Shown here: positions 2,790 to 26,553 of the stretch, piece by piece | Numbering within the stretch: position 1 is the first letter of the stretch | Layout: each line of letters begins with the position of its first letter | Assembly (NCBI GenBank): GCA_017535435.1 | Contig: JAFXTY010000070.1 | Span: 1 to 33,426, forward strand | DNA: 33,426 nucleotides | Source of the DNA: Spirochaetia bacterium | GTDB lineage: Bacteria > Spirochaetota > Spirochaetia > CADAEX01 | Direction: 5' to 3' | Program-made: the position numbers and the translations under genes | Notes under the pieces: generated by a model | What the model was told of the DNA's origin: nothing | Database searches by the model: none | Seen by the model: only the letters and a program-made list of their open reading frames with translations

Positions 2790-2797
2790 ACGGATTA

Positions 2798-2826
2798 ACT
2801 ATAATCAAAAAAAGGCTTTACTGCAA
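2798..2826 (-). promoter_or_regulatory. Candidate promoter of tRNA-Arg
   Basis: On the minus strand TTGCAG (2826-2821, overlapping the end of mazG) and TATAGT (2803-2798) are 17 bp apart, placing a start about 1-8 nt before the tRNA. The -35 match is poor (3/6), so co-transcription with the upstream mazG operon remains possible. Confidence 0.4.
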
Positions 2827-3225: not shown

Positions 3226-3233
3226 AATCAGCC

Positions 3234-4409: not shown

Positions 4410-4418
4410 AGCTTCTCC

Positions 4419-5456
4419 TTACGGCTTCTTGTCGCCCAAATATTTAAAGTACTCTAAACCAGTAGAGAATATCTTGTTGAAGGCAGGAATTGTATCCTTG
4501 TAGCTCTCCATAAGACGCCAGAACTCGAAGAACTCCTCGTCCTTGGAATAGGCATCTGCATAGATGGCAGTAGCCTCGGCATCGGCCTGTCCCTTGATCT
4601 CGTTTGCCTTCTTGTTGGCCTCGGATATTATGGACATCCTCTCGTTTGTAAGCCTTCCCAGCCACTCAAGCTTCTTACCTTCGCCGTAGGAGCGGTAGGC
4701 CTGGGCTATCTGGTTCCTGTCCTTGATCATCCTCTTGTAGACGCTTTCTGTAAGGTCATCTGAATACTTGATCTGGCGCAGGATTATATCTATAAGCTCC
4801 ACACCGAACTCGGGAGTAAGACGGCTTGCGGCAACCAGCATCTCCTCTGACAGGGCATTACGGCCCACCTCGATGGAATCATAGATGACGATAGTCTGGG
4901 TCTGGCCGGAAGGATCCTTAAGCACCTGCTTCTTTGCTCCGTTCTCAAGCCCTTCCTCGATGCTCTCCTCTATGCTCTCCCCTTCAACCATAAGCTCAGA
5001 CTCTCTCTTGATCTCGTTGATCACGTTGGAGTTCCTGACAACTTCCCGCAGGAAGTTCTGTGAAATTACAGTACGGAGGGATGATTCAATAATCTCGTTG
5101 AGACGTCCCTGTGCCGCATTGATAGTGGTTACAGATGCGTAGAACTTTGCAGGATCCACAATCTTCCACCGGGCTGTGGCATCAACCCATACGAATAGTT
5201 TCTCCCTGGTAGGGATACGCTGGGATTCGCCGTCCCATGCCATAATCTTCTTAGGATACTTGGTCACCTTGTCCACGATAGGAACCTTGAACTTGAGACC
5301 TGCGTTGTATTCTGTCTTTATGATACGTCCGAACCGGGCAACAATTGCCTGCTCCCCTTCGGAAAGAATATACATAGGGCCGGATGCCACAAAGAGGAAG
5401 ACCAGCACAATGAGAGCGCCGACAGTAATCTTGATGTCATTCTTTCTTGCTGTCAT
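4419..5456 (-). CDS. hflC: HflC-like SPFH membrane protein
   Basis: HflC partners HflK in a large membrane cage that encloses and modulates the FtsH protease. The 345-residue protein has a short basic N-terminus, one membrane anchor (about 12-31), the SPFH/band-7 start LSEGEQAIVARFGRI and a long charged helical region (about 230-310) ending in GQADAEATAIYADAY, typical of HflC. An acidic stretch near 155-175 (ESIEESIEEGLENGAKK) plus QTQTIVIYD is an insertion relative to E. coli HflC as I remember it. It overlaps hflK by 4 bp (ATGA), so translation is coupled. Confidence 0.93.
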   Translation of the reverse strand: MTARKNDIKITVGALIVLVFLFVASGPMYILSEGEQAIVARFGRIIKTEYNAGLKFKVPIVDKVTKYPKKIMAWDGESQRIPTREKLFVWVDATARWKIVDPAKFYASVTTINAAQGRLNEIIESSLRTVISQNFLREVVRNSNVINEIKRESELMVEGESIEESIEEGLENGAKKQVLKDPSGQTQTIVIYDSIEVGRNALSEEMLVAASRLTPEFGVELIDIILRQIKYSDDLTESVYKRMIKDRNQIAQAYRSYGEGKKLEWLGRLTNERMSIISEANKKANEIKGQADAEATAIYADAYSKDEEFFEFWRLMESYKDTIPAFNKIFSTGLEYFKYLGDKKP

Positions 5457-6433
5457 CTTGCACCTCCCTTGCCCTGAAGATTCTTGAGGGGCAGGAAGTT
5501 CTCCAGGTTCTTGTCCACCAGATCCCCCGCATTGCCGTTCTTGAGGACAGACTCGATCATCTCGATGTAGAGCCTTGTCTTGGTTATATCCTTGCTCTTG
5601 GCATATTCCTCATAGACTGAGTTGAAGCGGGCAGCCTCTCCCTGGGCCTGGTTCACCCTCTCCTTGGAATAACCCATGGCCTCCTGCACAATCTGGTCGG
5701 CCTGTCCCCGGGCCTTTGGAATCTCGTTGTTGTAGGCCTCTTTACCTTCGTTGATGAAACGGTTCATATCCTGCTGGGCCTTGGTGACATCCTCAAAGGC
5801 ATCCTGCACCTCGCCCCTCGGCGGAACAATGTTCCTGAGTTTCACAGCAATGACATTGATGCCCAGGTTGTAGCTTCCAAGGACGCTGTTCATAAGCTCC
5901 TGGCCCTGGATCTCTATGTTGTTCCGCTCCTCGCCGATGACATCCATGATGGTACGGTCCCCCACCAGCATGTTCAGGGTGGACTGGGAGATATCCCTTA
6001 TGGTCTTCTCCTTCTCAAGTACGTTGAAAAGCCATGCCCTGGGGTCTGTGATACGGTACTGGATGATCCACTCCACATCCACGATGTTCAGGTCGCCTGT
6101 CAGCATCACCGATTCATCGGGATAGTCGTTGGTCTGGGAACCGCCATATTCGTTGGTCCTGAAACCGAAGGACATATTCTGTATAACCTGGGTGGGAACA
6201 TTGTAGTTCCGCTCAATGCCGAAGGGAAGCTTCATATGAAGTCCCGGCCCTGTTATCCGGTTGAATTTTCCAAGTAAAAGTATTACTGCCTCTTCCCGCT
6301 GGTCCACCTGATAGATACCTGTTGCCAGCATTCCCACAATAAGCACACCAAGGATGATGGTTGTGAGAGTCTTGCGGCTGGGCATCTTGAACTGAGGCGG
6401 CCTGTAGGTGAAAGGAGGATTTCTGTCGCTCAT
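5453..6433 (-). CDS. hflK: HflK-like SPFH membrane protein
   Basis: This 326-residue protein begins with a proline-rich cytoplasmic lead (NPPFTYRPPQ), then one membrane helix (about 23-42) and an SPFH domain starting VDQREEAVILLLGKF, with the HflK hallmark LHMKLPFGIERNY. The C-terminal coiled coil has KARGQADQIVQEAMGYSKERV. With HflC it forms the FtsH-regulating complex. AGGAGAAG precedes the ATG and directly abuts the U-tract of the rpmB terminator, leaving no room for a promoter. The hflK-hflC-rlmI-like-mazG set therefore appears to depend on read-through from the rpmB promoter. Confidence 0.93.
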   Translation of the reverse strand: MSDRNPPFTYRPPQFKMPSRKTLTTIILGVLIVGMLATGIYQVDQREEAVILLLGKFNRITGPGLHMKLPFGIERNYNVPTQVIQNMSFGFRTNEYGGSQTNDYPDESVMLTGDLNIVDVEWIIQYRITDPRAWLFNVLEKEKTIRDISQSTLNMLVGDRTIMDVIGEERNNIEIQGQELMNSVLGSYNLGINVIAVKLRNIVPPRGEVQDAFEDVTKAQQDMNRFINEGKEAYNNEIPKARGQADQIVQEAMGYSKERVNQAQGEAARFNSVYEEYAKSKDITKTRLYIEMIESVLKNGNAGDLVDKNLENFLPLKNLQGKGGAR

Positions 6434-6444
6434 TCTCTTCTCCT

Positions 6445-6478
6445 AAAAAAAAAGGGGTTACCCTATTGTAACCCCTTT
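6445..6478 (-). terminator. Intrinsic terminator after rpmB
   Basis: On the minus strand an 11-bp inverted repeat (AAAGGGGTTAC/GTAACCCCTTT, 6-nt loop) runs straight into nine U residues. The hflK Shine-Dalgarno begins immediately after the U-tract, so it probably works as a partial attenuator between rpmB and hflKC. Confidence 0.9.
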
Positions 6479-6496
6479 CAAACACAATGTCAAAAC

Positions 6497-6685
6497 TCAG
6501 GCCTTTGTAAGGAATCCCCTCTTAAGGCATGATGTACAAATCTTTACTGTCATAATTCTTCCATCAATAACTGTTCTCATCTTAAGAAGATTTGGTTTCC
6601 ATACTCTCTTTGTCTTATTCTGTGCGTGGCTTACATTGTTTCCGGTCATTACACCTTTTCCACATAAATCGCATCTTCTAGCCAT
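6497..6685 (-). CDS. rpmB: 50S ribosomal protein L28
   Basis: A 62-residue L28 with the family start MARRCDLCGKGVMTGNNVSH, then KTKRVWKPN and the C-terminal KICTSCLKRG. It carries two CxxC pairs (CDLC and CTSC), which makes it the zinc-binding, cysteine-containing form. I start it at the ATG preceded by GAGGTG; an in-frame start 48 nt upstream would add sequence foreign to L28 and would begin at the promoter itself. Codon use is strongly AGA/GTA/ATG-type, giving a local reference for highly expressed genes. It has its own promoter and terminator. Confidence 0.97.
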   Translation of the reverse strand: MARRCDLCGKGVMTGNNVSHAQNKTKRVWKPNLLKMRTVIDGRIMTVKICTSCLKRGFLTKA

Positions 6686-6704
6686 TTCTTCACCTCGTCT
6701 TGGT

Positions 6705-6733
6705 AGATTATCAAGTTTATCTTTTTTTGACAA
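6705..6733 (-). promoter_or_regulatory. rpmB promoter
   Basis: TTGTCA (6733-6728) and TAATCT (6710-6705) are separated by 17 bp on the minus strand. The expected start near 6698 leaves a leader of about 13 nt that still contains the GAGG site. Confidence 0.75.
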
Positions 6734-6751
6734 TACCTTTATAAAATATTA

Positions 6752-8800
6752 TCATTTTTTACCCATGATTGCGCCTGTCGGACACACCTTTACACACTCG
6801 CCGCAACCGTCGCACTTTGTATCCACCAGAGAGTGTCCGAAGGGAGCATGCATCCTGGTCTTGAAGCCACGGCCGTCGAAGGAGAGGATATTGAGCCCCT
6901 TGATCTCGGCACAGGCTCTTACACAGGAGCCGCAGCTTATGCACTTTCCTGTCTCGATCCTGATATCTTCATGGGAATCGTCCCTGTCATAGCCCCTTCT
7001 CTCACCCTTGAACAGGTGGGCATCGGCACCATAGCGTGTCGCATATTCACGGAGCTTGCAGTCCTTCTCTTTCTCGCAGCCGCACTTAAGGCACCGCTGT
7101 GCCTCGGCTCTCGCCTTCTCTGCTGTGAAGCCGGTCTCGATCTCCTGGAAGCTGCTCTTCCGCTTATCCATAGCAATGACAGGCATAGTTATGCGCTCAG
7201 CCTTCTCCTTCCCCTCGAAAAGGGATTCCGGGACTTCATCAAGAGGCCCCATGGAGGAGTTGAAGAGCACAGGCTCTCCTGTAACCTCTTCCCCTGCCAG
7301 GTACTGGTTGATGGAGTATGCGGCCTTCCGTCCTGCAGCAGCGGCCCTTACAGCGATATCGGCGCCGGACTGGCAGTCGCCGGCAGCAAAGATTCCCGGC
7401 CTTGAAGTCATGAATGTCTTAGGATCTGCAGCCACAGTTCCCCGCTTTGTAAGCTCTATACCCAGATCTGAAAAGCAGTCGGTGATAACCCGCTGCCCGA
7501 TGGCGGCGATTATAGAGGTGCAGCTTTCGGTGAACTCAGAGCCTTCTACTGGCACTGGGCTCCGACGCCCCGAGGCGTCAGGCTCTCCAAGCTGCATCCT
7601 GATGCACTTGAGAGCCAGGCCATCACCTGTCCGCTCTGCAGCCAGGGGGGCGGTGAGGTACTGAATCTCCACACCCTCGGCCAAGGCCTCCTCTATCTCG
7701 AAATCGCTGGCCGGCATCTCGGCCCTGGTCCTGCGGTACAGGATGATGGCCTTGGAGCCCAGCCGGACTGCGGTCCGGGCTGCATCGATAGCAGTGTTTC
7801 CGCCGCCCACTATAAAGGTCTTGGTGCCCAGGTCAACAGCCTTTCCTTCGGCAACCTTGCCTAAAACTTCGATTCCGGCATATATACCCTGGTTTTTCTC
7901 CCCTTCTATCCGCATGGAGGAAGAGCCCTGGGCACCGGCGGCGATGAGGAGGGCGTCAAAATCTTTCTCCAGCTCCTTTGCCTTTATGTCTCTGCCGATG
8001 GCAGTGTTGTATTTCACTTCCACACCCAGCTTCTCGATGGCGCCGAACTCATCCATAAGGACAGAGTCGGGCAGCCGGTAGTATGGAATACCGTAGCGGA
8101 GCATACCGCCGGACTTGGCATGGGATTCAAACACAGTAACCTTGTGGCCGGCCAGAGCCAGGTAGTAGGCGGCTGCCATTCCGGCAGGGCCTGCACCGAT
8201 TATTGCCACCTTCTTGCCTGTTGCTGGTGCCGGGGATGGGAACTGGGGAGCCCCTTTGGCTTTCTTCTCGGTGTCTGCGATATAGCGTTTCATGTAGCAG
8301 ATAGACATAGGCTCCTCAACCCGTGTCCTGCGGCACTGGTCCTCGCAAGGGCGAGGACAGATACGGCCAAGACAGCCGGCGAAGGGGGTCTTCTCCCTTA
8401 TCTTGTCAGCAGCCTCCAGCTCCTTTCCTTCAGCTACTAAAGCCATGAAATCCTTTATGGGGATGTTGGCAGGACACTCTGACTGGCAGGGGGGCATACA
8501 GTCGCCGCAGTGATCGGACACCAGGAGGTTGATGCACATCTTACGTGCCTTGTCCACCTCGCCACCCTCTACTGTGACAACCATTCCTTCCCGCACTTTT
8601 GTGGCACAGGATGGGACAAAGTTGCCCTTGCCCCCTTCCACCTTCACAGCGCATACAAAGCAGCTGGTGAAAGGCTGAAGTCCCTGGGCATTGCACAGAG
8701 TGGGTATGTCGAAGCCGCATTTCCGGGCAGCTTCAAGTATAGTAGTTCCCTGGGGAACTGCAACATCTATTCCGTTTATTTTAAGATTCACTTCGTTCAT
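6752..8800 (-). CDS. stnC: Electron-bifurcating transhydrogenase subunit, StnC-like (NfnB/GltD-like flavoprotein with ferredoxin domains)
   Basis: A 682-residue multi-cofactor protein. Residues 1-80 form a complex-I-type [2Fe-2S] ferredoxin (C36, C47, C50, C65). About 98-180 is the GltD/NfnB N-terminal Fe-S region (CGDCMPPCQSECP and GRICPRPCEDQC). A GltD-like core follows, with an FAD site (IIGAGPAGMAAAYYL) and an NAD(P) site (FIVGGGNTAIDAA), then a final FAAGDC motif. The C-terminus has CLKCGCEKEKDC and two [4Fe-4S] clusters (CISCGSCVRAC, CDGCGECVKVC). This order matches the NfnB-like subunit of the Sporomusa-type transhydrogenase, which couples NADPH, NADH and ferredoxin by flavin-based bifurcation. 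It is the last gene of the LysR-CysQ-like-stnABC run, 1 nt after stnB. A glutamate synthase or formate dehydrogenase subunit is less likely given its partners. Confidence 0.82.
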   Translation of the reverse strand: MNEVNLKINGIDVAVPQGTTILEAARKCGFDIPTLCNAQGLQPFTSCFVCAVKVEGGKGNFVPSCATKVREGMVVTVEGGEVDKARKMCINLLVSDHCGDCMPPCQSECPANIPIKDFMALVAEGKELEAADKIREKTPFAGCLGRICPRPCEDQCRRTRVEEPMSICYMKRYIADTEKKAKGAPQFPSPAPATGKKVAIIGAGPAGMAAAYYLALAGHKVTVFESHAKSGGMLRYGIPYYRLPDSVLMDEFGAIEKLGVEVKYNTAIGRDIKAKELEKDFDALLIAAGAQGSSSMRIEGEKNQGIYAGIEVLGKVAEGKAVDLGTKTFIVGGGNTAIDAARTAVRLGSKAIILYRRTRAEMPASDFEIEEALAEGVEIQYLTAPLAAERTGDGLALKCIRMQLGEPDASGRRSPVPVEGSEFTESCTSIIAAIGQRVITDCFSDLGIELTKRGTVAADPKTFMTSRPGIFAAGDCQSGADIAVRAAAAGRKAAYSINQYLAGEEVTGEPVLFNSSMGPLDEVPESLFEGKEKAERITMPVIAMDKRKSSFQEIETGFTAEKARAEAQRCLKCGCEKEKDCKLREYATRYGADAHLFKGERRGYDRDDSHEDIRIETGKCISCGSCVRACAEIKGLNILSFDGRGFKTRMHAPFGHSLVDTKCDGCGECVKVCPTGAIMGKK

Positions 8801-8801
8801 A

Positions 8802-10550
8802 TCAGATAACCCTTATAGCCCCGAATTTACACTTCTCAATACACATCTTGCACCGCACGCACTTGGCAGGGTCTATGACATGCGGCTTCTTTACAGAGCC
8901 TGTTATTGCCTGCACCGGACATACCTTGGAGCAGGCTGTGCAGCCTTTGCACTTGTCAGCTTCTATCTCAATCTTTATAAGAGGCTTGCATACACCTGCA
9001 GGACATTTTTTATCCTTTATGTGAGCAATGTACTCGTCCTTGAAATAGCGGAGTGTGGTCTTCACCGGGTTAGGTGCCAGCTGACCGAGGCCGCAGAGGG
9101 AGGATTTGCCTACAACATCTGCCAGCTCCTCCAGCAGGGCCAGGTCTTCCATGGTCCCCTCTCCCTGGGTTATCCGTTCCAGGATCTCCATCATACGCTT
9201 GGTGCCTATGCGGCAGAAGGTGCATTTGCCGCAGGACTCAGCCTGGGTAAACTGGAGGAAGTATTTGGCCACATCCACCATGCAGGAGGATGAGTCCATC
9301 ACTATCATACCGCCGGATCCCATTATGGCGCCGGTGGCACCGATAGATGCATAGTCGATAGGTGTGTCGAACAGGCTCTCGGGTATACAGCCGCCGGCAG
9401 GACCACCCATCTGCACTGCCTTGAGAGGCAGACCAGTGGAGGAACCGCCGCCGATTTTCTCTACAATCTCACGGATGGTAAGTCCCATGGGAACCTCCAC
9501 CAGACCTACCCGCTTAACCTTTCCTGCCAGGGCGAACACTTTGGTTCCGAAGCTCTGGCCATAGGAATATTTATTGAAGGATGCAGCCCCGGATACCAGG
9601 ATGCGGGGAACGTTTGCGTATGTCTCCACATTGTTGATATTGGTAGGCTTAGAATTAACTCCCGATTCTGCAGGGAACGGAGGCCTCAGGTGAGGCATAC
9701 CCCGCTTTCCCTCGATGGAGGCGATAAGGGCAGTCTCCTCGCCGCATACAAAGGCGCCGGCTCCCTCCTTTACATGGAGAACGAAGTTCTTGCCGGAACC
9801 CAGTATGTTGTTCCCCAGAAGGTTCCTCTTCTCGGCGGCATCAATTGCTATCTTAAGACGCTTGAGGGCCAGAGGGTATTCGGCACGGCAGTAGATATAG
9901 CCTTCGTCGGCCCCGGTTGCCCAGGCACCTATAAGCATACCCTCGATGACGCTGTGGGGGTCTCCCTCCAGGATGGCCCGGTCCATGAATGCACCTGGGT
10001 CACCTTCGTCCGCGTTGCAGACCAGGTATTTCTTATTCCCTTTTGCCCCCTTCAGGAACGCCCACTTCTGGCCTGTCAGGAAGCCGGCGCCGCCACGCCC
10101 CTTGAGGCCCGATTCCTTAAGCAGGTTTATCACATCATCACCGCTCATGGCAAGGGCTTTCTTTATCCCCTCGTAGCCACCTGTGGCAATGTATTCATCT
10201 ATGTTCTCAGGATCAATTTTTCCGCAGTTCTTAAGGGCTATCTTGACCTGCGGCCCCACAAAGCTTTTGGTTCCCTCATCATCGAAGATGCGGTTTGTCT
10301 CCGGCAGTCGGCCGCTTTTTACTCCATCAAGAAGCTTTTCTGCAAAGGCTACATCCACCTTGCCGAATGCTGTCTTTACGCCGGCTGCCACAACCTCTAC
10401 AATCGGTTCCTGGAAACAGATTCCGATACAGGAGGTCTTCTTGAGGACAATGTCTGCAGTACCAATATTCTTATCGAAAAAGTCGTAGACTTCCTGGGCT
10501 CCGGATGCGATTCCGCAGGAGCCAAGTCCAACTATGATATCTGTCTTCAT
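8802..10550 (-). CDS. stnB: NuoF/HydB/StnB-like NADH-binding flavoprotein subunit
   Basis: A 582-residue NuoF-type subunit. The N-terminal thioredoxin-like [2Fe-2S] domain (1-100) shows C12, C41 and C45, but the first Cys of the usual Cx4C pair appears as Ile. The NuoF core carries the FMN site (GLKGRGGAGFLTGQKW, CNADEGDPGAFMDR), the NADH-binding GAGAFVCGEETALIAS and the N3-type cluster SCGKCTFCRIGTKRM. The C-terminus adds a two-[4Fe-4S] ferredoxin (CKGCTACSKVCP, CVRCKMCIEKCK). This architecture is shared by bifurcating hydrogenases (HydB), HndC and StnB. No hydrogenase large subunit is in the window, and the downstream NfnB-like gene favours the transhydrogenase. It overlaps stnA by 4 bp. 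Confidence 0.85.
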   Translation of the reverse strand: MKTDIIVGLGSCGIASGAQEVYDFFDKNIGTADIVLKKTSCIGICFQEPIVEVVAAGVKTAFGKVDVAFAEKLLDGVKSGRLPETNRIFDDEGTKSFVGPQVKIALKNCGKIDPENIDEYIATGGYEGIKKALAMSGDDVINLLKESGLKGRGGAGFLTGQKWAFLKGAKGNKKYLVCNADEGDPGAFMDRAILEGDPHSVIEGMLIGAWATGADEGYIYCRAEYPLALKRLKIAIDAAEKRNLLGNNILGSGKNFVLHVKEGAGAFVCGEETALIASIEGKRGMPHLRPPFPAESGVNSKPTNINNVETYANVPRILVSGAASFNKYSYGQSFGTKVFALAGKVKRVGLVEVPMGLTIREIVEKIGGGSSTGLPLKAVQMGGPAGGCIPESLFDTPIDYASIGATGAIMGSGGMIVMDSSSCMVDVAKYFLQFTQAESCGKCTFCRIGTKRMMEILERITQGEGTMEDLALLEELADVVGKSSLCGLGQLAPNPVKTTLRYFKDEYIAHIKDKKCPAGVCKPLIKIEIEADKCKGCTACSKVCPVQAITGSVKKPHVIDPAKCVRCKMCIEKCKFGAIRVI

Positions 10551-11026
10551 TTCTTGTACTCCTCCAAAAGCTCCTTAAGGCGGGCTCTGGTCATCTTTCC
10601 ATACACCTTTCCGTTGATCATGACCACAGGGGCCAGGGAGCAGCAGCCCAGGCAGGATACTATCTCCAGGGTGAACAGCCCATCGGGAGTGGTCTCGCCG
10701 CTCTTTATTCCCAGGTAGCTTTCCGCTTCATCTATAAGGGAGTCGGCACCAGCCACAAAGCAGGCAGTTCCCTTGCACAGCTTTACTATATTCTTTCCAA
10801 GGGGGGTGAACCGGAACTGTGAGTAGAAGGTTCCTACACTGAAGAATTCAGCTGGCTTTATCCCTGTCACCTCGGCAACTGCATTCACTAAATCTTCGGC
10901 CAGATAACCACGGCGGCGCTGTATCTCCTGCAGAAGAGGGATAATCCTGTCCTTGGTTCCGCCGATGTCGGAGACAACTTTTTCAGCCTCGCTCAAAACA
11001 CCATTGCAACAACATTTGTCTTCCAT
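10547..11026 (-). CDS. stnA: NuoE/HydC/StnA-like [2Fe-2S] subunit
   Basis: A 159-residue NuoE-type subunit with an N-terminal helical bundle (RRRGYLAEDLVNAVAEVTGI, then VGTFYSQFRF) and a thioredoxin-like [2Fe-2S] domain with CKGTAC and SCLGCC ligand pairs. It passes electrons from the NuoF-like flavin to the rest of the complex. I start at the ATG at 11026; it overlaps the previous stop by one base (TAATG) and has GAGGAAAT upstream. The longer frame opening at 11080 would run 54 nt into the cysQ-like gene and adds unrelated residues. The extra N-terminal CCCNG is unusual but not part of the cluster pattern. Confidence 0.87.
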   Translation of the reverse strand: MEDKCCCNGVLSEAEKVVSDIGGTKDRIIPLLQEIQRRRGYLAEDLVNAVAEVTGIKPAEFFSVGTFYSQFRFTPLGKNIVKLCKGTACFVAGADSLIDEAESYLGIKSGETTPDGLFTLEIVSCLGCCSLAPVVMINGKVYGKMTRARLKELLEEYKK

Positions 11027-11799
11027 TATTTCCTCGCAAAACTTTTGCGGATGGTCTGGACTGCTTCGGGTGTGCCGCATACTGCGTAATCCCGTAGTGC
11101 GCTCCTGTCCACCAGCTCTTTATATTCTATCTTTTTTCCATTCAGGTATTCAAGTTCGAAACCAAGCTTCCTGATCACTGCATGGGAGGCGGCTATATCC
11201 CAGATGAAGCTGTTGTTGATGAGGGCTCCGCTTATCTGAGAATGAAGAATGATGGCAGACATACTGATTATGGAGGAGCCTGAGTTACGCACCTTGCCGC
11301 AGAAGCTGGAAAAATCGAAATAGCGGTGGGCGGTGGAGGGGGCCATAACCTGCATGGGATAGGCGGTCTCCTTCTCCAATTTAAAGGCCCGACCGTTCAA
11401 AGTGACGCTGCCATTCTCCTCGGCCACCAGCAGGCTGCCGGCAGGGCCCCAGGATGGAGCGTAAACTATGCCGCCCACAGGCTCCAGGTTCTTTAAAAGC
11501 CCCAGGGCTATGCACCAGCCCGGCATTCCCATGCTGTAGGTGTCGGTGCCATCCAGAGGATCCAATGCAAAGGTGTATTCGTAGTCCGGGTTATAGGAAC
11601 TGGTTGAAGCTTCTTCTGCAATTATGTTCACTCCTGGATAATATTCCTGGATCACACTGGTTAGGGCCTTGTTTATAGCTATGTCCACTGCAGTGACCAC
11701 AGAGCCGTCGGTCTTGAAGGAACGGACAGCGCTGCTCTGGGCATCAAGGGCAAAGGAGCCTGCATTCTTTATGTGATTCACCAGGGGCAGAAGTTCCAT
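11026..11799 (-). CDS. Inositol-monophosphatase-family phosphatase, CysQ-like
   Basis: A 257-residue Mg-dependent, Li-sensitive-type phosphatase. Metal ligands are visible in IIAEEAS, FALDPLDGTDTY and, near the C-terminus, FIWDIAASHAVIRKLG. CysQ members hydrolyse 3'-phosphoadenosine-5'-phosphate to AMP; others act on inositol-1-phosphate or fructose-1,6-bisphosphate, and the sequence does not decide between them. It begins 1 nt after the LysR stop and shares a TAATG junction with stnA, so regulator, phosphatase and redox complex are one unit. An NrnA-like DHH protein at 18723 could also act on PAP, making this one of two candidate PAP phosphatases here. Confidence 0.85.
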   Translation of the reverse strand: MELLPLVNHIKNAGSFALDAQSSAVRSFKTDGSVVTAVDIAINKALTSVIQEYYPGVNIIAEEASTSSYNPDYEYTFALDPLDGTDTYSMGMPGWCIALGLLKNLEPVGGIVYAPSWGPAGSLLVAEENGSVTLNGRAFKLEKETAYPMQVMAPSTAHRYFDFSSFCGKVRNSGSSIISMSAIILHSQISGALINNSFIWDIAASHAVIRKLGFELEYLNGKKIEYKELVDRSALRDYAVCGTPEAVQTIRKSFARK

Positions 11800-11800
11800 G

Positions 11801-12706
11801 TCAGCCTGAAATAGTCGGGTAAATATCGGCCCATCTCATGATAAGATCGCGGAAATCCTTAAGTGGTTTGGAGAAATATTTCTCGCTGTGATAGATCATG
11901 TAGTATTTGCGTCTGAAGTTCTTGTCCGGAACAGGGATTGCAATGAGCTCGCCGCTCTTTATCTCCTTGTGGACAATGCTCTTGGTAAGGAAAGCCATTC
12001 CCATGTTGTTCTCCACCAGTTTCTTTATAGCCTCGCTGTTGGAGATCTCGTACTTCATGCACATATCAATCTTGTTCTTTTTAAGGAAGGCATCCACAAC
12101 CTTGCGGATCACGGAGCCCTGCTCGTGCATGATTATCTCCCTCCCATCCAAGTCCTGCAGGTTCAGTTCCTGGGTGCTGGTGAACTTGCAGTTGGGGCTT
12201 GCCACCAGCACAATCTCATCCTCCAGAATCTCATGGACAGAAATCTTAGGGTTCTGCACCGGGGCAGAGATGAATCCGATATCTTCCTTGAGCTCCGAAA
12301 TGCTCTCGATGATATCCTTGTTTGTGGCAGTCTGGATAGAGATGCTGATCTCGGGCCGGGTCTGCTTGAAGTCCCTGATGATGTAAGGAATGTGGTAAGA
12401 TCCGAAACTTTCTGAAGCCAGGATGCTTATCTTGCCCTTGTTGTACTCCTGGAAGTCCTTGATAGCCTCCTCGGCCTGGGACTCCATGTCAAAAATCCTC
12501 TCTGCGATTGTGTAGAGATTAAGCCCTGCATCGGTAAGAATGACCTTTTTGCCAATGATGTCAAGGAATTTAAGGTTGTAGTGGCTCTGCAGCTGCTTGA
12601 TCTGCTTGGTTACAGCCGGCTGGGTTATGCAAAGGAACTCAGCAGCCTTTGTAAGACTCTTGTACTTGGCTGTAAAATAAAAGGTTTTTAAGTGATATAA
12701 GTTCAT
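11801..12706 (-). CDS. LysR-family transcriptional regulator
   Basis: A 301-residue LysR regulator. The winged helix-turn-helix (about 1-60) has SLTKAAEFLCITQPAVTKQIKQLQ and a linker helix. The periplasmic-binding-like effector domain (about 90-295) starts KGKISILASESFGSYHIPYII. It resembles CysB/CysL-type members, but the effector cannot be read from sequence. It is the first gene of the stnABC unit and so probably controls its own operon, although LysR genes are usually divergent from their target. It has no Shine-Dalgarno; the promoter puts the transcript start about 5 nt before the ATG. Confidence 0.92.
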   Translation of the reverse strand: MNLYHLKTFYFTAKYKSLTKAAEFLCITQPAVTKQIKQLQSHYNLKFLDIIGKKVILTDAGLNLYTIAERIFDMESQAEEAIKDFQEYNKGKISILASESFGSYHIPYIIRDFKQTRPEISISIQTATNKDIIESISELKEDIGFISAPVQNPKISVHEILEDEIVLVASPNCKFTSTQELNLQDLDGREIIMHEQGSVIRKVVDAFLKKNKIDMCMKYEISNSEAIKKLVENNMGMAFLTKSIVHKEIKSGELIAIPVPDKNFRRKYYMIYHSEKYFSKPLKDFRDLIMRWADIYPTISG

Positions 12707-12785: not shown

Positions 12786-13487
12786 TTACTTCAGGAGATC
12801 AAGCTCTGACAGCTGTCTCAGGTCTGTAATCTCAGGCACACCCAGGGTGTTCTCCGGCCAGTTCCGCTTTACAGAGTAGTGCTTGAGCCACACGCACTTT
12901 ATTCCTGCCCCATGAGCTCCCTCTATGTCCACACGGTAGTCGTCGCCTACGTAGATGACTTCATCCTCGGTGACACCAAGGTTCTTGAGCATCATCCTGA
13001 AGGGTGCAGGATCCGGTTTGGCAGGAATTCCGTCGGTGCCGGAGAGGATGTAGCTGTCAAAGTACTTGCAGGCCCGCTCGAACTCGGGGCTCTGGAGTGC
13101 TCTGGTGGAGCCGTCCCGCTGGGAGTTGCAGATAAGACCCAGCTTGTATTTTTTCTTAAGGTTTATGATAACTTCTTCAGCTTCAGGGAAAAGCTTCATG
13201 GCATCGATGACAAACTGCCAATACTCGTCGGCAAGCTTGTCCAGAAATGCATCGCCAAGGTTTTTTCCATAGAGGGCCTGAAGCTCAAGCCACTGGTTCT
13301 TGCGGTTGAAGTCTGCGGCAAGGAAGTGCTTTTTCCGGATCTCACGGAAATGCCCCATGAATGTCTCAGTGTCAGTGATTCCCAAAGCCTCAATCAGTTT
13401 GTTCTGGGCATTCTTCTCCCCATCCTTATAGCCGCTGGCAGCATCTCCAAGTGTCTGCACAAAGTCAAAAACCAATGCTTTGATCAT
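12786..13487 (-). CDS. HAD-superfamily hydrolase
   Basis: A 233-residue HAD-like phosphatase with an alpha-helical C1 cap (about 15-100). Motif I is VFDFVQTLGD: the nucleophile Asp is present, but the acid/base Asp two residues on is Val (DxVxT). Motif II is LICNSQ, motif III Lys lies in GIPAKPDPAPF and motif IV is YVGDDYRVDIEGA. Other HAD proteins with FDFVGT or FDVWNT start motifs exist, so it may still be active or act on phosphoanhydrides; the substrate is unknown. GGAGGG precedes the ATG. It lies 73 nt after the aldehyde dehydrogenase, beyond a strong terminator, and I see no clear own promoter, so expression by read-through is likely. Confidence 0.85.
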   Translation of the reverse strand: MIKALVFDFVQTLGDAASGYKDGEKNAQNKLIEALGITDTETFMGHFREIRKKHFLAADFNRKNQWLELQALYGKNLGDAFLDKLADEYWQFVIDAMKLFPEAEEVIINLKKKYKLGLICNSQRDGSTRALQSPEFERACKYFDSYILSGTDGIPAKPDPAPFRMMLKNLGVTEDEVIYVGDDYRVDIEGAHGAGIKCVWLKHYSVKRNWPENTLGVPEITDLRQLSELDLLK

Positions 13488-13560: not shown

Positions 13561-14997
13561 TCAGTCAAGGTAAGCTGGCTTGTGTGGCATATCAACTCTG
13601 TCGTCGCCGATGAGCTTCTTAGCCTTTGCAAGATACTTTCCGAATACTTCGTCGTCTGTTGCAACATACCATGCTCTTGGAACAGCAAGTCTTGTTGTGT
13701 TGATGAAGTGTCTGAAGTTGATGTTGTCAGAGTGGCTGTTTCCTGTCCATGTACCGCAACCGATTGTTGTTGTGAATTCCTGGCCAGCGAACCAGCTTCC
13801 GGAGTTAACAACTGTGTTAGGCATGTTGATGTTTACACGGCCTGTAGGAATGAACTCAGCAAGTCTGTACCACTGCTCTGGCTTTGTTGAATGAAGTGCG
13901 CAGCTGTGACCAACACCGGAGAAGTACAGGTTCTTCTTGAGATCGTGGATTTCTGTCTCGAAATCTTCCCATGTCCATACTGTGAGGACGAGAGAAAGCT
14001 TTTCGTTGGAGAACATATCTTCTGGACCAATCTTCTGTCCCTTAACCATGATGAACTTTGTTCCTTCTGGTACGGAGATTCCAGCAATCTTAGCGATTGT
14101 CTGAACTGGTTTTGCAACGATGTCTCTGTTAAGAGTATGTCCATCAGGCCACATAGCAGCTCTGAGTTTCTCTCTGCTTGCATCATCCAGCAGGTATCCA
14201 CCTACTTTCTTGAGTTCTTCCATCATCTTGTCGTAAATGCTTACGTGGATGGAAACTGCGTTCTCGGAAGAACATGATGTTGCGTTATCGTAGCACTTGG
14301 AAGCTGCGATGCACTGAGCAGCGTGCTTCAGGTCTGCAGATGGGTCTACGATTGCTCTTACGTTACCAGCACCTACTGTTACGGATGGTGTACCTGCAAG
14401 GTGTACAACCTTGATAAGTGCCTTTCCACCAGTTGCTACTGCGAAGTCACACTTCTGCATAAGCTCTACTGTCTTCTCGTTGGAAGGCTCTGCGATTACC
14501 TGGAACAGGTCCTCTGGAGCTCCGATAGCCTTGAGTGCTTTTCTTCCCCAGTTAACTGCGTTTACTGTAGCAAGCTTTGTTCTTGGGTGTGGTGAGCAGA
14601 TCATAGCGTTTCTTGTCTTAAGAAGTGTAAGACCGATGAATGCAGCTGTGATACATGGGTTTGTACATGGACATACGTTAGCAACAACGCCCATTGGTTT
14701 TGCATAAGTTGTGATTCCTCTGATTGGGTCTTCCTTGATGATTCCACAAGTCTTTGCACCCTTCATATCCCACAGGATACCTCTTACCTTACCAGCTTTT
14801 CCGTACTTGTCAGCGTAAACGCCCATTCCGGATCCTTCGTAAGCCAGCTTAGCGCCTTCTTCAGCAACCTGCTTCTGGAGATACTGCCATCCAACGATAG
14901 CAACGATTTCATCTACTTCTTCCTGTGTCTTGAACTCGATCCACTCGAAAGCTTTTCTACCGCGTTCATACATTTCAGCAATGTTTTCTTCAGCCAT
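13561..14997 (-). CDS. CoA-acylating aldehyde dehydrogenase (EutE/SauS-like)
   Basis: A 478-residue aldehyde dehydrogenase of the acylating type, which converts an aldehyde, NAD(P)+ and CoA to an acyl-CoA and NAD(P)H (or the reverse). The nucleophile is C242 in CYDNATSCSSENAV, the pattern of AdhE/EutE/SauS enzymes and not of hydrolytic ALDHs. Other family landmarks are KPMGVVANVCPCTNP (about 100-114), ATGG (188-191), VTVGAGNV and the C-terminal TTIGCGTW. The end of the chain resembles sulfoacetaldehyde dehydrogenase SauS from memory, but the aldehyde is undetermined. Codon use is T/A-ending with AGA for Arg, as in rpmB, pointing to very high expression. It follows the two citrate-synthase-like genes after 101 nt containing two hairpins, and has a U-tract then AGGAG before its ATG. 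Confidence 0.9.
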   Translation of the reverse strand: MAEENIAEMYERGRKAFEWIEFKTQEEVDEIVAIVGWQYLQKQVAEEGAKLAYEGSGMGVYADKYGKAGKVRGILWDMKGAKTCGIIKEDPIRGITTYAKPMGVVANVCPCTNPCITAAFIGLTLLKTRNAMICSPHPRTKLATVNAVNWGRKALKAIGAPEDLFQVIAEPSNEKTVELMQKCDFAVATGGKALIKVVHLAGTPSVTVGAGNVRAIVDPSADLKHAAQCIAASKCYDNATSCSSENAVSIHVSIYDKMMEELKKVGGYLLDDASREKLRAAMWPDGHTLNRDIVAKPVQTIAKIAGISVPEGTKFIMVKGQKIGPEDMFSNEKLSLVLTVWTWEDFETEIHDLKKNLYFSGVGHSCALHSTKPEQWYRLAEFIPTGRVNINMPNTVVNSGSWFAGQEFTTTIGCGTWTGNSHSDNINFRHFINTTRLAVPRAWYVATDDEVFGKYLAKAKKLIGDDRVDMPHKPAYLD

Positions 14998-15098: not shown

Positions 15099-16220
15099 TC
15101 ATTTCTTTCCTTTTCCGTGAACGACCTTTCTAGCGTCGTCAAGAACGAAGTCAATAGCGAAGCCGGATCCAGAGAGCTCTTTAGCCTTTCTGTCCCACAT
15201 CTTCTTCCATTCTTCTGGTGTCTGAGCCTGGCCACCCTTGAATGCGCCTCTCTCCTTGAGGGATGGAACTGGTCTGTCTGTTGGGCCATCGTACCACTCT
15301 TTTGGAGTAAGGGTCTTACCATATGTATCGAAGCCGTCTCTCTCGCACTCTCTCTCAATCTCTTCGCAAACGTGTGCGCCAGCGGAGAATGCTCTGGTAA
15401 CGCCCATGATACACCATGCAGCATCTGGTGTGAAGTCAAGGTCCATCATTGCAGCTGTAGCAGCAGCCATGAAGTCAGCCTCAACATATCCGATCTTAGC
15501 CTGAGCAGCCTTAACAACTTCCTTCAGGAATGGGATATACTTAAGCTCTTTCTTTCCAGCAAGAGCCTTCTCAGCATATGCCATAAGATCTTTTGGTGTT
15601 GGGTCCTTAACATACTTCTCATCGATTCCGAAGTGATCCTCGTGATAGCACTCTTCTACACAAAGAGCAGCTGCATCTGCAGCAGAGATTCCCTTCTCAG
15701 CAATCATGTTGTAGTATTTCTCAAGCATGTAACCGAAGTTCTTGAATGCACCATAAGCCTCACCGAATGCAAATACAGAAGCACCTGCAGCCTGTGTAAG
15801 GTATGATTTTCCTCTAGCTACCAGTCTTGCAACCAGTGCTGGGTTGGAAAGTCCGTCCTCAAGTCCTACGAGAAGGATATAATCGAGAACTTTTCTCTCC
15901 TCTACCAGAGGGATTCTAGCCTGGAAGTCGATGAACAGAACATCGCAAACACCATAGCCAGCTTCTACCAGCTCTGTTGTATCATAACCTCTGGTTACGA
16001 TTCTGTGGATGTTCTTGTATGCAACTTCAGAAACCCACTTGAAGTGAGCTCTGTTGTCGTCTGGGAGACAACCAATCTCTCTGTTTGTATAGTCAAAAAG
16101 AAGGTTAGGATTTCCGAGGTTACCAATAACTCTTCTCTTTGCATGCTTCATGCCAGCGATTCTCTCATCGCAAACCTTTCCGGTCATTCTATTAACAGCA
16201 ACGTCTTTCAGATCACCCAT
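15099..16220 (-). CDS. Citrate synthase/citryl-CoA lyase-like paralogue B (catalytic His replaced)
   Basis: A 373-residue protein homologous to its neighbour and to citrate synthase. The first catalytic His motif (GxxHG) is GEAYG, with Tyr at 156. The second His region is rebuilt: DHFGIDEKYVKDPTPKD, with DPTP where DPRA is usual. The Asp segment is kept (MDLDFTPDAAW, D260), as is GPTDRPVP near 312. About 80 extra N-terminal residues and a basic C-terminal extension (after about 325) are absent from paralogue A. It cannot be an ordinary citrate synthase. It may be the partner subunit of a heteromer with A, since citrate-synthase active sites lie at a subunit interface, or it may use a different acid/base. 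It overlaps A by 13 bp, with AGGAG inside A. Codon use is rpmB-like. Confidence 0.82.
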   Translation of the reverse strand: MGDLKDVAVNRMTGKVCDERIAGMKHAKRRVIGNLGNPNLLFDYTNREIGCLPDDNRAHFKWVSEVAYKNIHRIVTRGYDTTELVEAGYGVCDVLFIDFQARIPLVEERKVLDYILLVGLEDGLSNPALVARLVARGKSYLTQAAGASVFAFGEAYGAFKNFGYMLEKYYNMIAEKGISAADAAALCVEECYHEDHFGIDEKYVKDPTPKDLMAYAEKALAGKKELKYIPFLKEVVKAAQAKIGYVEADFMAAATAAMMDLDFTPDAAWCIMGVTRAFSAGAHVCEEIERECERDGFDTYGKTLTPKEWYDGPTDRPVPSLKERGAFKGGQAQTPEEWKKMWDRKAKELSGSGFAIDFVLDDARKVVHGKGKK

Positions 16221-17104
16221 TTTTTAAATTCTCCTGTCTTAAGTTCGTTCATAGCATAAGCTTCTCTTTCTGACTGAAGAGGAACTTCTCTGTCTTCTGG
16301 TCCGATGTACTTGATCATTGAAAGGTCAAGCATCTGTACCATTGGTTCGTTTCTGGATGCACCCCAAGCTCTACCTTTCTTCAGTGTGAAGAGAGCGTGG
16401 CAGGAGCAGCTGTAACCTCTGGTTACGCATCCGATTGTCCAAGCTGCGTTTGGAGAGAATCCCATGTCGGAGAGAGCTGTGTTACCAGCACCGATCATGT
16501 TAACTGCTACATAGGATCTTCCTTCAGCAAATCTTCTTGCATAGAAGTGTTTCTCAAGAGCTCTCTGGAATTTCAGGTAAACACCTACAACTCCGATCTC
16601 TTCCTGTTTCAGGTGTGTCGGTTCTGCTCTTGGGTCGCCGTCAAGGTGCTGTGGCTGTCCCATTCCCATTACTGCTCTACCTGCATCCATGTACTCATCA
16701 ACACACTCTACAGCAACCTGTTCAACTGTCTTGTGCTCAAGAACTGCTCTGTCGAGGTATTTTTTCATCATGTAGCCGTGCTGTGCTCCAGGTCCATGAG
16801 CTCCACCGAATGTTGCAATAGAAGCACCAACTGCTGCTGGAAGCATTGGATGTCCGTTCATAACACCGATTGCAGCTGCTGCTGAAGGTGACATTGAGTG
16901 CTCAAGGAATTCTGCAACTTCGTAGTCGAGCATTGCTCTTTCATTCTCTGCAGGAATTCTGCCCTGGAAAAGAATGTACAGTCCATCGATAAATGTGTAG
17001 CCAGCGTTTGCGAGCTCGCGCACATCAAAACCGCGAAGAACTGTTTTTTCTTCTGTCTTGTAAGAAATACCAGTCTTTCTCTGGATCAAGGGTTTACGAT
17101 CCAT
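16208..17104 (-). CDS. Citrate synthase/citryl-CoA lyase-like paralogue A (Gln at second catalytic His)
   Basis: A 298-residue protein of the short citryl-CoA lyase/citrate-synthase type, lacking the N-terminal region of full citrate synthase (446 residues in the neighbour). LRGFDVRELANAG and LYILFQGRIP begin the fold. GGAHG keeps the first catalytic His (H103). The GxGHxxx...DPRA motif aligns without gaps to GMGQPQHLDGDPRA, so the second catalytic His is Gln150, with another His three residues on (H153). The Asp segment is SDMGFSPNAAW (D213). GPEDREVP near 268 matches GPTDRPVP in B. It is the first gene of the operon, with AGGAGG before the ATG and its own promoter. The reaction is unknown; citryl-CoA-type cleavage or synthesis with a different oxoacid or aldehyde is possible. 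Confidence 0.84.
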   Translation of the reverse strand: MDRKPLIQRKTGISYKTEEKTVLRGFDVRELANAGYTFIDGLYILFQGRIPAENERAMLDYEVAEFLEHSMSPSAAAAIGVMNGHPMLPAAVGASIATFGGAHGPGAQHGYMMKKYLDRAVLEHKTVEQVAVECVDEYMDAGRAVMGMGQPQHLDGDPRAEPTHLKQEEIGVVGVYLKFQRALEKHFYARRFAEGRSYVAVNMIGAGNTALSDMGFSPNAAWTIGCVTRGYSCSCHALFTLKKGRAWGASRNEPMVQMLDLSMIKYIGPEDREVPLQSEREAYAMNELKTGEFKKWVI

Positions 17105-17364: not shown

Positions 17365-18705
17365 ATGGAAGCATTTATAAAGAAGATGACAGAAACAGCA
17401 ATCAGCAACAATTCCATCGATCCCGCACTTTATTTAAAGTACAACACCAAACGAGGCCTTCGGAATGAAGACGGCTCCGGAGTGGTGGTGGGACTTTCCC
17501 AGATCGGCGATGCCCATGGTTATATCTTTGATGAGGGAACCCTGGTTCCGGACGAAGGTAGACTTACCTACCGGGGAGTTCTGATCAACGACCTGGTCTC
17601 CAATGCTATAAATGAAAAAAGACATGGCTTTGAGGAGACAGCTTTCTTCCTTCTTTTTGGAAAGCTTCCTACAGCCGAAGAGCTGGAGGAGTTCAACAAT
17701 GTTCTGGATGAGTGCAGGCAGCTCCCAGCCGGATTTGCCGAGGATATGATACTCAAGGCTCCCAGCCGGGATGTGATGAACAAGCTGGCCCGGAGCGTGC
17801 TGGTATGCTACTCCTACGATGCCGATGCCGACAATGTGTCAATAGACAACGTACTGCGCCAGTGCATAGAGCTGATAGCCCGGTTCCCAACCATGATCGC
17901 CTACGGCTACCAGGCAAAGGCTCACTACCACGACGGCAAGAGCCTTTTCCTCCACGCTCCGGCCCCGAAGATCGGGACTGCGGCCAACTTCCTGCGGATG
18001 ATCCGACCCGACACCAAGTACACCGAACTGGAGGCCTCGGTCCTCGATATCGCCCTTATCCTCCACGCAGAGCATGGCGGTGGTAACAACTCCACCTTCA
18101 CAAACCATGTGGTGACCTCGGCCCAGACCGACACCTACGCTGCCATAGCCGCAGCCCTCTGCTCCATGAAAGGCCCGCTCCACGGCGGCGCCAACAAGAA
18201 GGTGAAGAGGATGATGGAAGACATAATGGAGAATGTTCCAGACTGGAAAGACGACGGAAAGCTCATAGACTACCTCCGGAGGATTCTGCGCAAGGAAGCC
18301 TTTGACAGAACAGGGATCATCTATGGCTATGGCCATGCCATATACACCCTGTCGGACCCGAGAGCCCTGCTCCTTAAGAAAAAGGCTGCCGAGCTGGCCG
18401 CTGCCAAGGGCTTCGACGACGAGTTCGCCCTGTATAACACTGTGGAGCGGCTTATTCCCGAGGCATTCGAGGCAGAGGGCAAGAACCCCAGGTCCAGCAG
18501 CGTGAATGTGGATTTCTACTCCGGCTTTGTATATAAGATGCTGAATATCCCCACAGCCCTGTACACACCGCTCTTTGCCATGGCCCGCATCGCCGGCTGG
18601 TCTGCCCACCGGATCGAGGAACTGGTAAGCGGCGGCAAGCTCATAAGACCTGCATATCGTGTGGTGGCTCCAAAACGGCCTTACACCCCTATGAGCGACA
18701 GATAA
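17365..18705 (+). CDS. gltA: Citrate synthase (canonical)
   Basis: A 446-residue citrate synthase condensing acetyl-CoA and oxaloacetate to citrate. All three catalytic residues are visible: H273 in GPLHGGAN, H324 in GYGHAIY...SDPRA and D383 in VNVDFYSG. The C-terminal RPAYRVVAP provides the phosphate/carboxylate-binding arginine region. The N-terminus has about 30 residues before RGLRNEDGSGV. Codons are CTG/CGG/GCC-rich, unlike the divergent paralogues A and B on the other side of the shared 260-bp promoter region. It heads an operon with nrnA and trpR. The segment probably gives 2-oxoglutarate for glutamate synthesis in an incomplete TCA pathway; 2-methylcitrate synthase activity cannot be excluded. 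Confidence 0.94.
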   Translation: MEAFIKKMTETAISNNSIDPALYLKYNTKRGLRNEDGSGVVVGLSQIGDAHGYIFDEGTLVPDEGRLTYRGVLINDLVSNAINEKRHGFEETAFFLLFGKLPTAEELEEFNNVLDECRQLPAGFAEDMILKAPSRDVMNKLARSVLVCYSYDADADNVSIDNVLRQCIELIARFPTMIAYGYQAKAHYHDGKSLFLHAPAPKIGTAANFLRMIRPDTKYTELEASVLDIALILHAEHGGGNNSTFTNHVVTSAQTDTYAAIAAALCSMKGPLHGGANKKVKRMMEDIMENVPDWKDDGKLIDYLRRILRKEAFDRTGIIYGYGHAIYTLSDPRALLLKKKAAELAAAKGFDDEFALYNTVERLIPEAFEAEGKNPRSSSVNVDFYSGFVYKMLNIPTALYTPLFAMARIAGWSAHRIEELVSGGKLIRPAYRVVAPKRPYTPMSDR

Positions 18706-25193: not shown

Positions 25194-25322
25194 ATCTTCT
25201 CTCATCCAGACTATACTGTCGGCTACGGAATCGCACCGTATCGTGCCCATTGAAAAGGGCTCGCTGGCTTACGCTCTAAAAGCGCTCACAGCCGGTAGGG
25301 AAATGCTCCCTGCCCCGAAGAC
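25194..25322 (-). promoter_or_regulatory. FMN riboswitch (RFN element)
   Basis: The minus-strand sequence has the RFN landmarks: GTCTTCGGGGCAGGG at the 5' side, CCCTACCGGC, GCGAGCCC, GATTCCG and the 3' block GCCGACAGTATAGTC followed by GGATGAGAGAAGAT. P1 pairs GTCTTC (25322-25317) with GAAGAT (25199-25194). It senses FMN and controls the ribDEBAH operon. Confidence 0.96.
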
Positions 25323-25328
25323 AAATCA

Positions 25329-25357
25329 AGAATATCATTTTATCCCCTATATGACAA
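25329..25357 (-). promoter_or_regulatory. Promoter of the rib operon
   Basis: TTGTCA (25357-25352), 17 bp, TATTCT (25334-25329) on the minus strand, putting the start near 25322, exactly at the 5' strand of riboswitch P1. Confidence 0.7.
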
Positions 25358-25371
25358 GCCCCTCGGCAATA

Positions 25372-25400
25372 TTGACATTTCCGTCTTCTCATTTTATCTT
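25372..25400 (+). promoter_or_regulatory. Promoter of the DbpA-domain protein gene
   Basis: A perfect TTGACA (25372-25377), 17 bp, TATCTT (25395-25400). The leader is about 22 nt and contains AAGGA. It is divergent from the rib promoter, the -35 boxes being 14 bp apart. Confidence 0.8.
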
Positions 25401-25428
25401 ATACATAGAAATATTACAGAAGGACACA

Positions 25429-26553
25429 ATGGTTAACAGGGAGCAGAGGATTCTCCAGGTATTACACGATGGGGGCTTTAGCGAGCTTACTTTTCTCCAG
25501 AAGTCAATTATACCTTTGGCATTGGATGGAGAAAACATAATTGCCGAAACTGGAGTAAATGCAGGAAAGATTGTAAGCTACATCATTTCCTCCATCATCT
25601 ACCTTGACGATTCTGATCCCGGTTTAAAAGTTTTAGTTATCGTTCCATCTGTGGAAGACGTAAAGAAAGTATCAGAGCAGTATGCGCTGTTCTGCAGAGA
25701 AGGAGGCTCGAAAATTTCGGTTGTCTCCTTCTCCGAGGAGAATAATACAAAAGGAGAGCTTGCTGTCCTGGAGAAAAAGCCGGACATCCTGATCTCTACG
25801 CCAGACAAGATTATAGATCATATCAGGCTGGGCAACTTTGACACCGACTCCATCTTGACCTGTATTGTTGACTGCGGAGATGAACAGTACAACGGCTTCT
25901 CCAACGACATCGAGTTCATCCATTCTGCGTTTTCCGTGCTGACCCGGTTCTGGGTCTTCACAAAAGACAGAGAAATGATACCTATTTTTCACCACCTTCT
26001 GATTGATCCCCAGATTATTTACAGCAACCGGGGAATCAAGAGCAGCACATCAGAACGACAGGAGGAAAAAATGGAATTCAGTGCAGATCAGGAAACCAAG
26101 TACGCAGAACTTATAAAGAAAATGGTCAAGAGCATCAAAGAGGAAGAGGATCCAAACGAAATGAACCAGTTCAAGAAGCTGGTGAAGAGAAATGTTCCTT
26201 TCACAATGAGGGGATATTTCAGCGCATACCTTTTCAAGACTCTGGTTACAAACACCAAGCCGGCACATGCCCCAAGCCAGAACAGAGCCGATAAAGATTA
26301 TAAAACTCTTTTCTTCAACATCGGCCGCACACGGGGACTGAACCCGCAGGCACTGCTCCGCTTCATCGCCGCAACTGCAGAGATTGACGGTTCAGAGATT
26401 GGACAGATAAAGATGCATGACAATTATTCCTTTGTGGATGTGGCAGAGCCATCTGTCCAGAAAGTTCTGGACACCCTTAACTCAAAGGTATACAGAGGCA
26501 GGACTTTAGCTGTCAATTTCGCGAAGAAGAATACAGAAGCTCCGAAAGCCTGA
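25429..26553 (+). CDS. Degenerate DEAD-box-like protein with C-terminal DbpA RNA-binding domain
   Basis: A 374-residue protein with one RecA-like domain (about 1-205), a charged linker (about 210-260) and a DbpA-type RRM-like domain (about 300-370: LFFNIGRTRGLNPQALLRFIA, YSFVDV, GRTLAVNFAKK). The Q motif is good (FSELTFLQKSIIPLALDGENII), and motifs Ia (VLVIVPS) and Ib (ILISTPDKIIDHI) are recognisable. However, Walker A is AETGVNAGKI in place of AxTGxGKT, motif II is DCGD in place of DEAD and motif III (SAT) is missing. There is no second RecA domain. It therefore cannot be a normal helicase and is probably a ribosome-assembly or RNA-binding adaptor. I start at the ATG at 25429, with AAGGA upstream and a promoter; the longer frame would run into the riboswitch region. 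Confidence 0.83.
   Translation: MVNREQRILQVLHDGGFSELTFLQKSIIPLALDGENIIAETGVNAGKIVSYIISSIIYLDDSDPGLKVLVIVPSVEDVKKVSEQYALFCREGGSKISVVSFSEENNTKGELAVLEKKPDILISTPDKIIDHIRLGNFDTDSILTCIVDCGDEQYNGFSNDIEFIHSAFSVLTRFWVFTKDREMIPIFHHLLIDPQIIYSNRGIKSSTSERQEEKMEFSADQETKYAELIKKMVKSIKEEEDPNEMNQFKKLVKRNVPFTMRGYFSAYLFKTLVTNTKPAHAPSQNRADKDYKTLFFNIGRTRGLNPQALLRFIAATAEIDGSEIGQIKMHDNYSFVDVAEPSVQKVLDTLNSKVYRGRTLAVNFAKKNTEAPKA

Follow-up and report, generated by a model that had tools for sequence, protein, structure and literature searches.

How might a citrate-synthase fold be put to use once most of its catalytic residues are gone? Two overlapping genes, here called A and B, raise this question in a window of 33,426 nucleotides (the whole stretch of DNA that was analysed). 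This window corresponds to contig C17 in a genome of 1.7 Mb; the assemblies closely related to that genome belong to Spirochaetia and come mostly from ruminant forestomach. An earlier note on this DNA had described a tandem pair of citrate-synthase-fold paralogues with complementary changes in the catalytic residues. The open reading frames and the Pfam and NCBIfam matches bear out the tandem pair and its fold. On the minus strand the order is A, B, a dehydrogenase and a HAD hydrolase, and the features on which the argument rests are the following:

16208..17104, minus strand: gene A, 298 aa, assigned to the citryl-CoA-lyase fold from the ORF list and family match.
15099..16220, minus strand: gene B, 373 aa, divergent paralogue of A by the ORF list and family match.
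16208..16220, minus strand: overlap of the end of A with the start of B, 13 bases; the same overlap is found in Opitutia.
13561..14997, minus strand: acylating aldehyde dehydrogenase (SauS/SucD/AdhE type), third gene of the cassette.
12786..13487, minus strand: HAD-family hydrolase with a DFVQT motif.
11801..12706, minus strand: LysR-type regulator, downstream, of uncertain operon membership.
17365..18705, plus strand: ordinary citrate synthase (PRK14032), divergent from A.
Residues of gene A: H103 at 16796-16798, Q150 at 16655-16657, H153 at 16646-16648 and I204 (Asp position) at 16493-16495.
Residues of gene B: Y156 at 15753-15755, D249 at 15474-15476 and M251 (Asp position) at 15468-15470.

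Are A and B citrate synthases? Neither is the full-length, two-domain protein with His-His-Asp that makes up this class. The Pfam model Citrate_synt (PF00285) finds A above its cut-off (2e-10) and B below it (8.5e-5), in both cases through the C-terminal half only. What the two share with citrate synthase is the homology of the C-terminal domain and the spacing of the Asp position to an Arg (+25) and a His (+32), but the second His and the Asp itself are lost. The nearest profile match for both is the citryl-CoA lyase 6hxp (A 1.9e-22, B 4.3e-15). Common to this family (NCBIfam PRK06224 / NF004864-NF004869) and the pair are the fold, the length of A, the first His, the Arg of DPR, an R......H landmark and a GPxxRxxP tail. 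B also resembles the citrate synthase homology domain of ATP citrate lyase over ~200 residues (6qcl, 6hxn; 1.5e-10), although A and B have no acyl-CoA-synthetase domain and have lost the triad. Judged by these comparisons, A and B are citryl-CoA-lyase-fold paralogues. We do not file them as citryl-CoA lyases, because they fall below the curated cut-offs (111.7 bits for A and 68.3 bits for B against 212 in the PRK06224 models; 116.2 against 193 for the A protein of Opitutia) and because A has lost two of the three catalytic residues; their occurrence as two paired genes also sets them apart from that family. Single-chain structure models of A and B are of low confidence (mean pLDDT 50 and 51) and carry no weight in what follows.

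The Asp of citrate synthase takes a proton from acetyl-CoA, the enolate is held by the first His, and all three catalytic residues come from one chain. An example of this His-His-Asp triad is His214, His253 and Asp307 of MsCS (PMC6386500), and the intact citrate synthase adjoining A in the window provides an internal reference for it. What is left of the triad in A? The first His, H103, is invariant in 13/13 orthologues, and so is Gln150, which occupies the place of the second. The alignment of the A profile to 6hxp is ungapped at this second site, with Q150 opposite the catalytic His, H153 opposite a Tyr and H103 opposite the first His. The earlier note was thus right to align GMGQ with GxGH, its positions for H103, Q150 and Y156 agree with the residue check, and the idea that H153 is an ordinary second His hidden by misalignment is ruled out. 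H153 is nevertheless invariant among the orthologues, and it is possible that it substitutes functionally for a lost residue. The anion-binding Arg159 and Arg229 are invariant as well, and the GPxDRxVP motif is present in both A and B, as the note had it.

The catalytic Asp is another matter. In the window citrate synthase, 6hxp and 6qcl, an Arg follows it by exactly 25 residues and a His by exactly 32; A and B keep both of these landmarks without exception. By this spacing the Asp position holds Ile or Val in 13/13 A and Met, Ile or Leu in 12/12 B, which goes against the earlier statement that both chains keep the Asp segment. A multiple alignment that includes the window citrate synthase is shifted by two residues and sets the Asp opposite N202 of A and D249 of B, a register that we disfavour because the spacing is equal in four protein groups. 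In B the first site is Tyr in 11 of 12 sequences and Phe in the remaining one (G008), the second site is Ile, Val or Tyr with no conserved His, and the Arg of DPR is replaced by Ala or Thr. By alignment and spacing, then, A is left with a single member of the catalytic triad and B with no member at all. The supposed complementarity of the two chains does not survive this comparison, and of the expected fixed Gln and Tyr only the Gln is fixed; the view that this site differs from an ordinary citryl-CoA lyase site holds, with Q150 in place of the second His and the Asp lost. With Tyr or Phe, and neither a His nor an Asp, at the homologous sites, B resembles a partner without a catalytic function. 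Since most residues required by citrate synthase are lost, A and B probably run a reaction unlike that of citrate synthase, possibly in the breakdown of carbon-phosphorus compounds.

Could both proteins have given up catalysis altogether? Purifying selection acts on both genes (dN/dS against the nearest diverged species is about 0.05 for A and about 0.08 for B), so that the residue changes are neither chance nor decay. A and B might assist the dehydrogenase, which they always adjoin, as CoA sensors or as a scaffold, and such a role would suit the loss of two members of the triad in A and of all three in B. A precedent comes from ATP citrate lyase, whose citrate synthase homology domain has been argued to act allosterically rather than catalytically (PMC10115795). 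We consider this unlikely, as A is better conserved than B (mean column identity among orthologues 79% vs 66%) and the invariance of His103, Gln150, Arg159 and Arg229 in A exceeds what a scaffold would need.

How constant is the pairing? An initial scan of named genome contigs yielded 13 loci. In the class Spirochaetia 11 of 395 searched genomes are positive (10 from one family and G588, a distant spirochaete of another family), as are 6 of 223 in the order of the Opitutia hosts; each of these metagenome assemblies has both genes, and A alone or B alone was found nowhere among the 395 and 223 genomes. B directly follows A in every genome found with A, in agreement with the adjacency that the earlier note had proposed to look for, and the order A, B, dehydrogenase is constant in all loci long enough, in two phyla and including G588. 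An AGGAGA stretch, resembling a ribosome-binding site, lies inside the end of gene A near the overlap. Because the genes co-occur throughout the genomes searched and look translationally coupled, an A/B heteromer is the natural reading, and we infer from the coupling and co-occurrence that it is obligate. The heteromer is thus the part of the earlier model that stands. Its other part, a composite active site at the A/B interface to which each chain supplies part of the acid/base set, would also be served by pairing and coupling, yet it is very improbable given that the sites of B homologous to the triad hold no catalytic residue, show neither a conserved His nor a conserved Asp, and in G008 even have Phe for the first-site Tyr.

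Relatives outside the pair give a wider view of the missing Asp. Other spirochaetes carry solitary citryl-CoA-lyase-like proteins (loci L037 and L038) with an A-like N-terminus and a PQH..DPR motif. Their Asp position is lost too (Pro), but they keep both His residues (GYHHPQH), are encoded by single genes and have no such dehydrogenase alongside; the loss of the Asp therefore extends beyond the A/B pair. The solitary gene of L037 (region 1671-9963, G055) lies about 4 kb from genes for PEP mutase and for phosphonopyruvate-decarboxylase-like and iron-alcohol-dehydrogenase-like proteins, a set of phosphonate synthesis, to which we give no weight because L038 is without these neighbours. Is the pair then a remodelled hydroxyacyl-CoA lyase or synthase of the citryl-, citramalyl- or malyl-CoA type, with H153 or another residue replacing the lost acid/base, the dehydrogenase perhaps running reductively in fermentation, and nearby phosphonate genes incidental? 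The fold is that of citryl-CoA lyase, H153 is invariant and its PQH motif recurs in the Asp-less relatives with both His, and a citrate synthase adjoins A in spirochaetes, though only in those of the window's family. However, the Asp responsible for making or taking up the enolate proton is missing in both chains, the scores lie well under the lyase cut-offs, and the linkage to phosphonate genes recurs across separate gene arrangements. Taken together, this makes a remodelled lyase doubtful, if a serious candidate.

What does the dehydrogenase add? The Cys of its SCSSENA motif is conserved, and its nearest relatives, SauS and SucD (8cei), use anion-bearing aldehydes. SauS is its best named family, with 456 bits for the window protein and 484 bits as a second score in model NF047625, both below the cut-off of 600; the PhnY model TIGR03250 gives only about 20 bits. 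The gene belongs to the same family as the SauS and SucD acylating aldehyde dehydrogenases, but no SauS or SucD case is known with a citryl-CoA-lyase-like pair. The SauS match could mean a sulfonate cassette, with sulfoacetyl-CoA as the product or substrate of the dehydrogenase and as the target of A/B. Besides the score under the cut-off, the neighbours of the cassette are phosphonate and not sulfonate genes, and on chemical grounds the release of sulfite from sulfoacetyl-CoA needs reduction rather than enolate chemistry; a sulfonate role is accordingly improbable. In two Opitutia, and in the family's spirochaetes wherever the contig extends far enough, the HAD gene adjoins the dehydrogenase. 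Its position +2, usually the second Asp of phosphatases, is Val in spirochaetes, Tyr in L033 and Asp in L030. We reject a classical phosphonatase, as the alignment has no conserved cap Lys and the nearest solved relatives are haloacid-dehalogenase-like, but the protein could still be the enzyme that cleaves the C-P bond.

The gene context in Opitutia points to phosphonates, since in three of these genomes the cassette sits inside a phosphonate-degradation cluster. Loci L033 and L049 share the order HpnZ-like alcohol dehydrogenase, XRE-cupin regulator, phosphonoacetate hydrolase PhnA (over cut-off) and A. In L033, B, the dehydrogenase and the HAD gene follow, and at a greater distance there is an organophosphate-family MFS transporter; the contig of L049 breaks off within A, and L030 carries B and the dehydrogenase from the same genome. 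In L104 the cassette is accompanied by HpnZ-like, PhnX-like, 2-hydroxyacid dehydrogenase, PhoD-like and organophosphate-type MFS transporter genes, together with a relative of the XRE-cupin regulator of L033 and L049. Across the order, PhnA or PhnW over cut-off occurs in 4/6 cassette-positive and 4/217 cassette-negative genomes (Fisher p = 1e-5, kinship ignored). PhnW over cut-off is absent from the spirochaete G588 and from G061 and G065, and PhnA from G062, G061 and G065.

Is the same true of the spirochaetes? A transaminase of the PhnW-AepZ type (E <= 1e-60) is found in 9/11 genomes of the spirochaete family and 9/49 others of the class (p = 1e-4, kinship ignored); here as in Opitutia the cassette hosts fall into few lineages, which these enrichment p values do not take into account. 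The cut-off of TIGR03301 (PhnW-AepZ) is reached in 8/11 genomes of the family, one of them (G009) without the cassette, and in the Opitutia G062 and G063; that of TIGR02326 is reached in Opitutia only. The window's own genome has only fragments of the transaminase, at contig ends. Phosphonate genes adjoin the cassette in Opitutia only, and the spirochaete transaminase lies elsewhere in the genome, next to a fused TRAP transporter. This arrangement (L062, L063, L065 and L068; the transporter apparently of the TAXI type) is a possible unrecorded uptake route for aminophosphonates. A second copy of the transaminase, in G002 (L064:6712-13009), accompanies ornithine-cyclodeaminase-family and Asp/Glu-racemase-like proteins. 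Could the enzyme be a biosynthetic AepZ? PEP mutase was not found in the nine genomes of the family that were tested, which rules this out; the transaminase is thus not for phosphonate synthesis. Known C-P hydrolases are likewise missing over cut-off, PhnA from all five spirochaete genomes tested and PhnX from all 16 genomes tested. With the catabolism of 2-aminoethylphosphonate (PhnW, PhnX, PhnY, PhnA) the system shares the genes in or near the Opitutia cassette and the spirochaete transaminase, and it differs by having no PhnX over cut-off in the cassette genomes tested and an acylating dehydrogenase in the place of PhnY.

How could these pieces fit together? Our preferred reading, to which we give a probability of about 0.4, is an A/B heteromer with its active site in A only and B as a non-catalytic, degenerate partner; it would act on an acyl-CoA that the dehydrogenase makes from an anionic C2 aldehyde, most likely phosphonoacetaldehyde. 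This aldehyde would come from 2-aminoethylphosphonate via the PhnW-type transaminase in spirochaetes and two Opitutia, and from 2-hydroxyethylphosphonate via the HpnZ-type alcohol dehydrogenase in other Opitutia. The acylating dehydrogenase would convert it to phosphonoacetyl-CoA, which A/B might take towards acetyl-CoA (or phosphonoacetate), with phosphate as the eventual product. Elsewhere, a BKACE enzyme of flavophos synthesis has been predicted to yield phosphonoacetyl-CoA (PMC12871164). In the active site of A, His103 would bind the enolate or carbonyl, Gln150 occupies the place of the second His, Arg159 and Arg229 are kept, and a hydrophobic residue takes the place of the proton-abstracting Asp. 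The order of A, B and dehydrogenase with its overlap in two phyla, the linkage to phosphonate genes and the anion-aldehyde relatives of the dehydrogenase speak for this reading; against it stand the unlinked transaminase of spirochaetes, the hosts where PhnW or PhnA is missing, the transaminase without cassette in G009 and the SauS score of 456 against 600. The substrate and reaction of A/B, and phosphonoacetaldehyde as the aldehyde, are what we infer from such evidence.

Why would an enzyme keep the His and discard the Asp? A His without an Asp fits an enolate formed by the loss of another group (e.g. phosphonate), or a reaction that involves no enolate (e.g. thioester transfer). The first case suggests a more specific, and rather unlikely, version of the preferred reading, in which A/B would be a citrate-synthase-fold carbon-phosphorus hydrolase acting on phosphonoacetyl-CoA. 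His103 of A would hold the leaving acetyl-CoA enolate while water attacks the phosphorus; the base Asp would be unneeded because the group that departs from the alpha carbon is a phosphonate rather than a proton, and the absence of the Asp would open space for the phosphonate group. The thioester would act as the electron sink, as opposed to the Schiff base in PhnX. A literature search that covered few subscription journals returned no described enzyme with such an A/B pair, as the earlier note had anticipated, and nothing relevant on a citrate-synthase-like protein in phosphonate catabolism or on phosphonomethylmalate with citrate synthase.

Whatever the reaction, the database label citryl-CoA lyase is very probably wrong for such genes, because the pair is without the residues that define that chemistry and yet is conserved in two phyla. 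The pair also offers a test case for a citrate-synthase fold without its catalytic Asp. If the link to phosphonates is true, a CoA-dependent route would join the short list of ways in which carbon-phosphorus compounds are used, and it would operate in rumen and gut spirochaetes where known C-P hydrolases are not found over cut-off. 2-Aminoethylphosphonate was first found in rumen protozoa.

Some other features of the window deserve mention. Downstream of the cassette (6752-11080) lie NuoE-like and NuoF-like genes and an iron-sulfur flavoprotein oxidoreductase, with the other complex I genes absent, and L033 has NuoE/NuoF-like genes downstream of its cassette too. The NuoE-like frame of the window (10547-11080) overlaps an inositol-phosphatase-family gene (11026-11799) by 55 bases, so its true start may be later. 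A DEAD-box-helicase-like protein is encoded at 25243-26553, and its DEAD motif seems to be VDCGDEQ.
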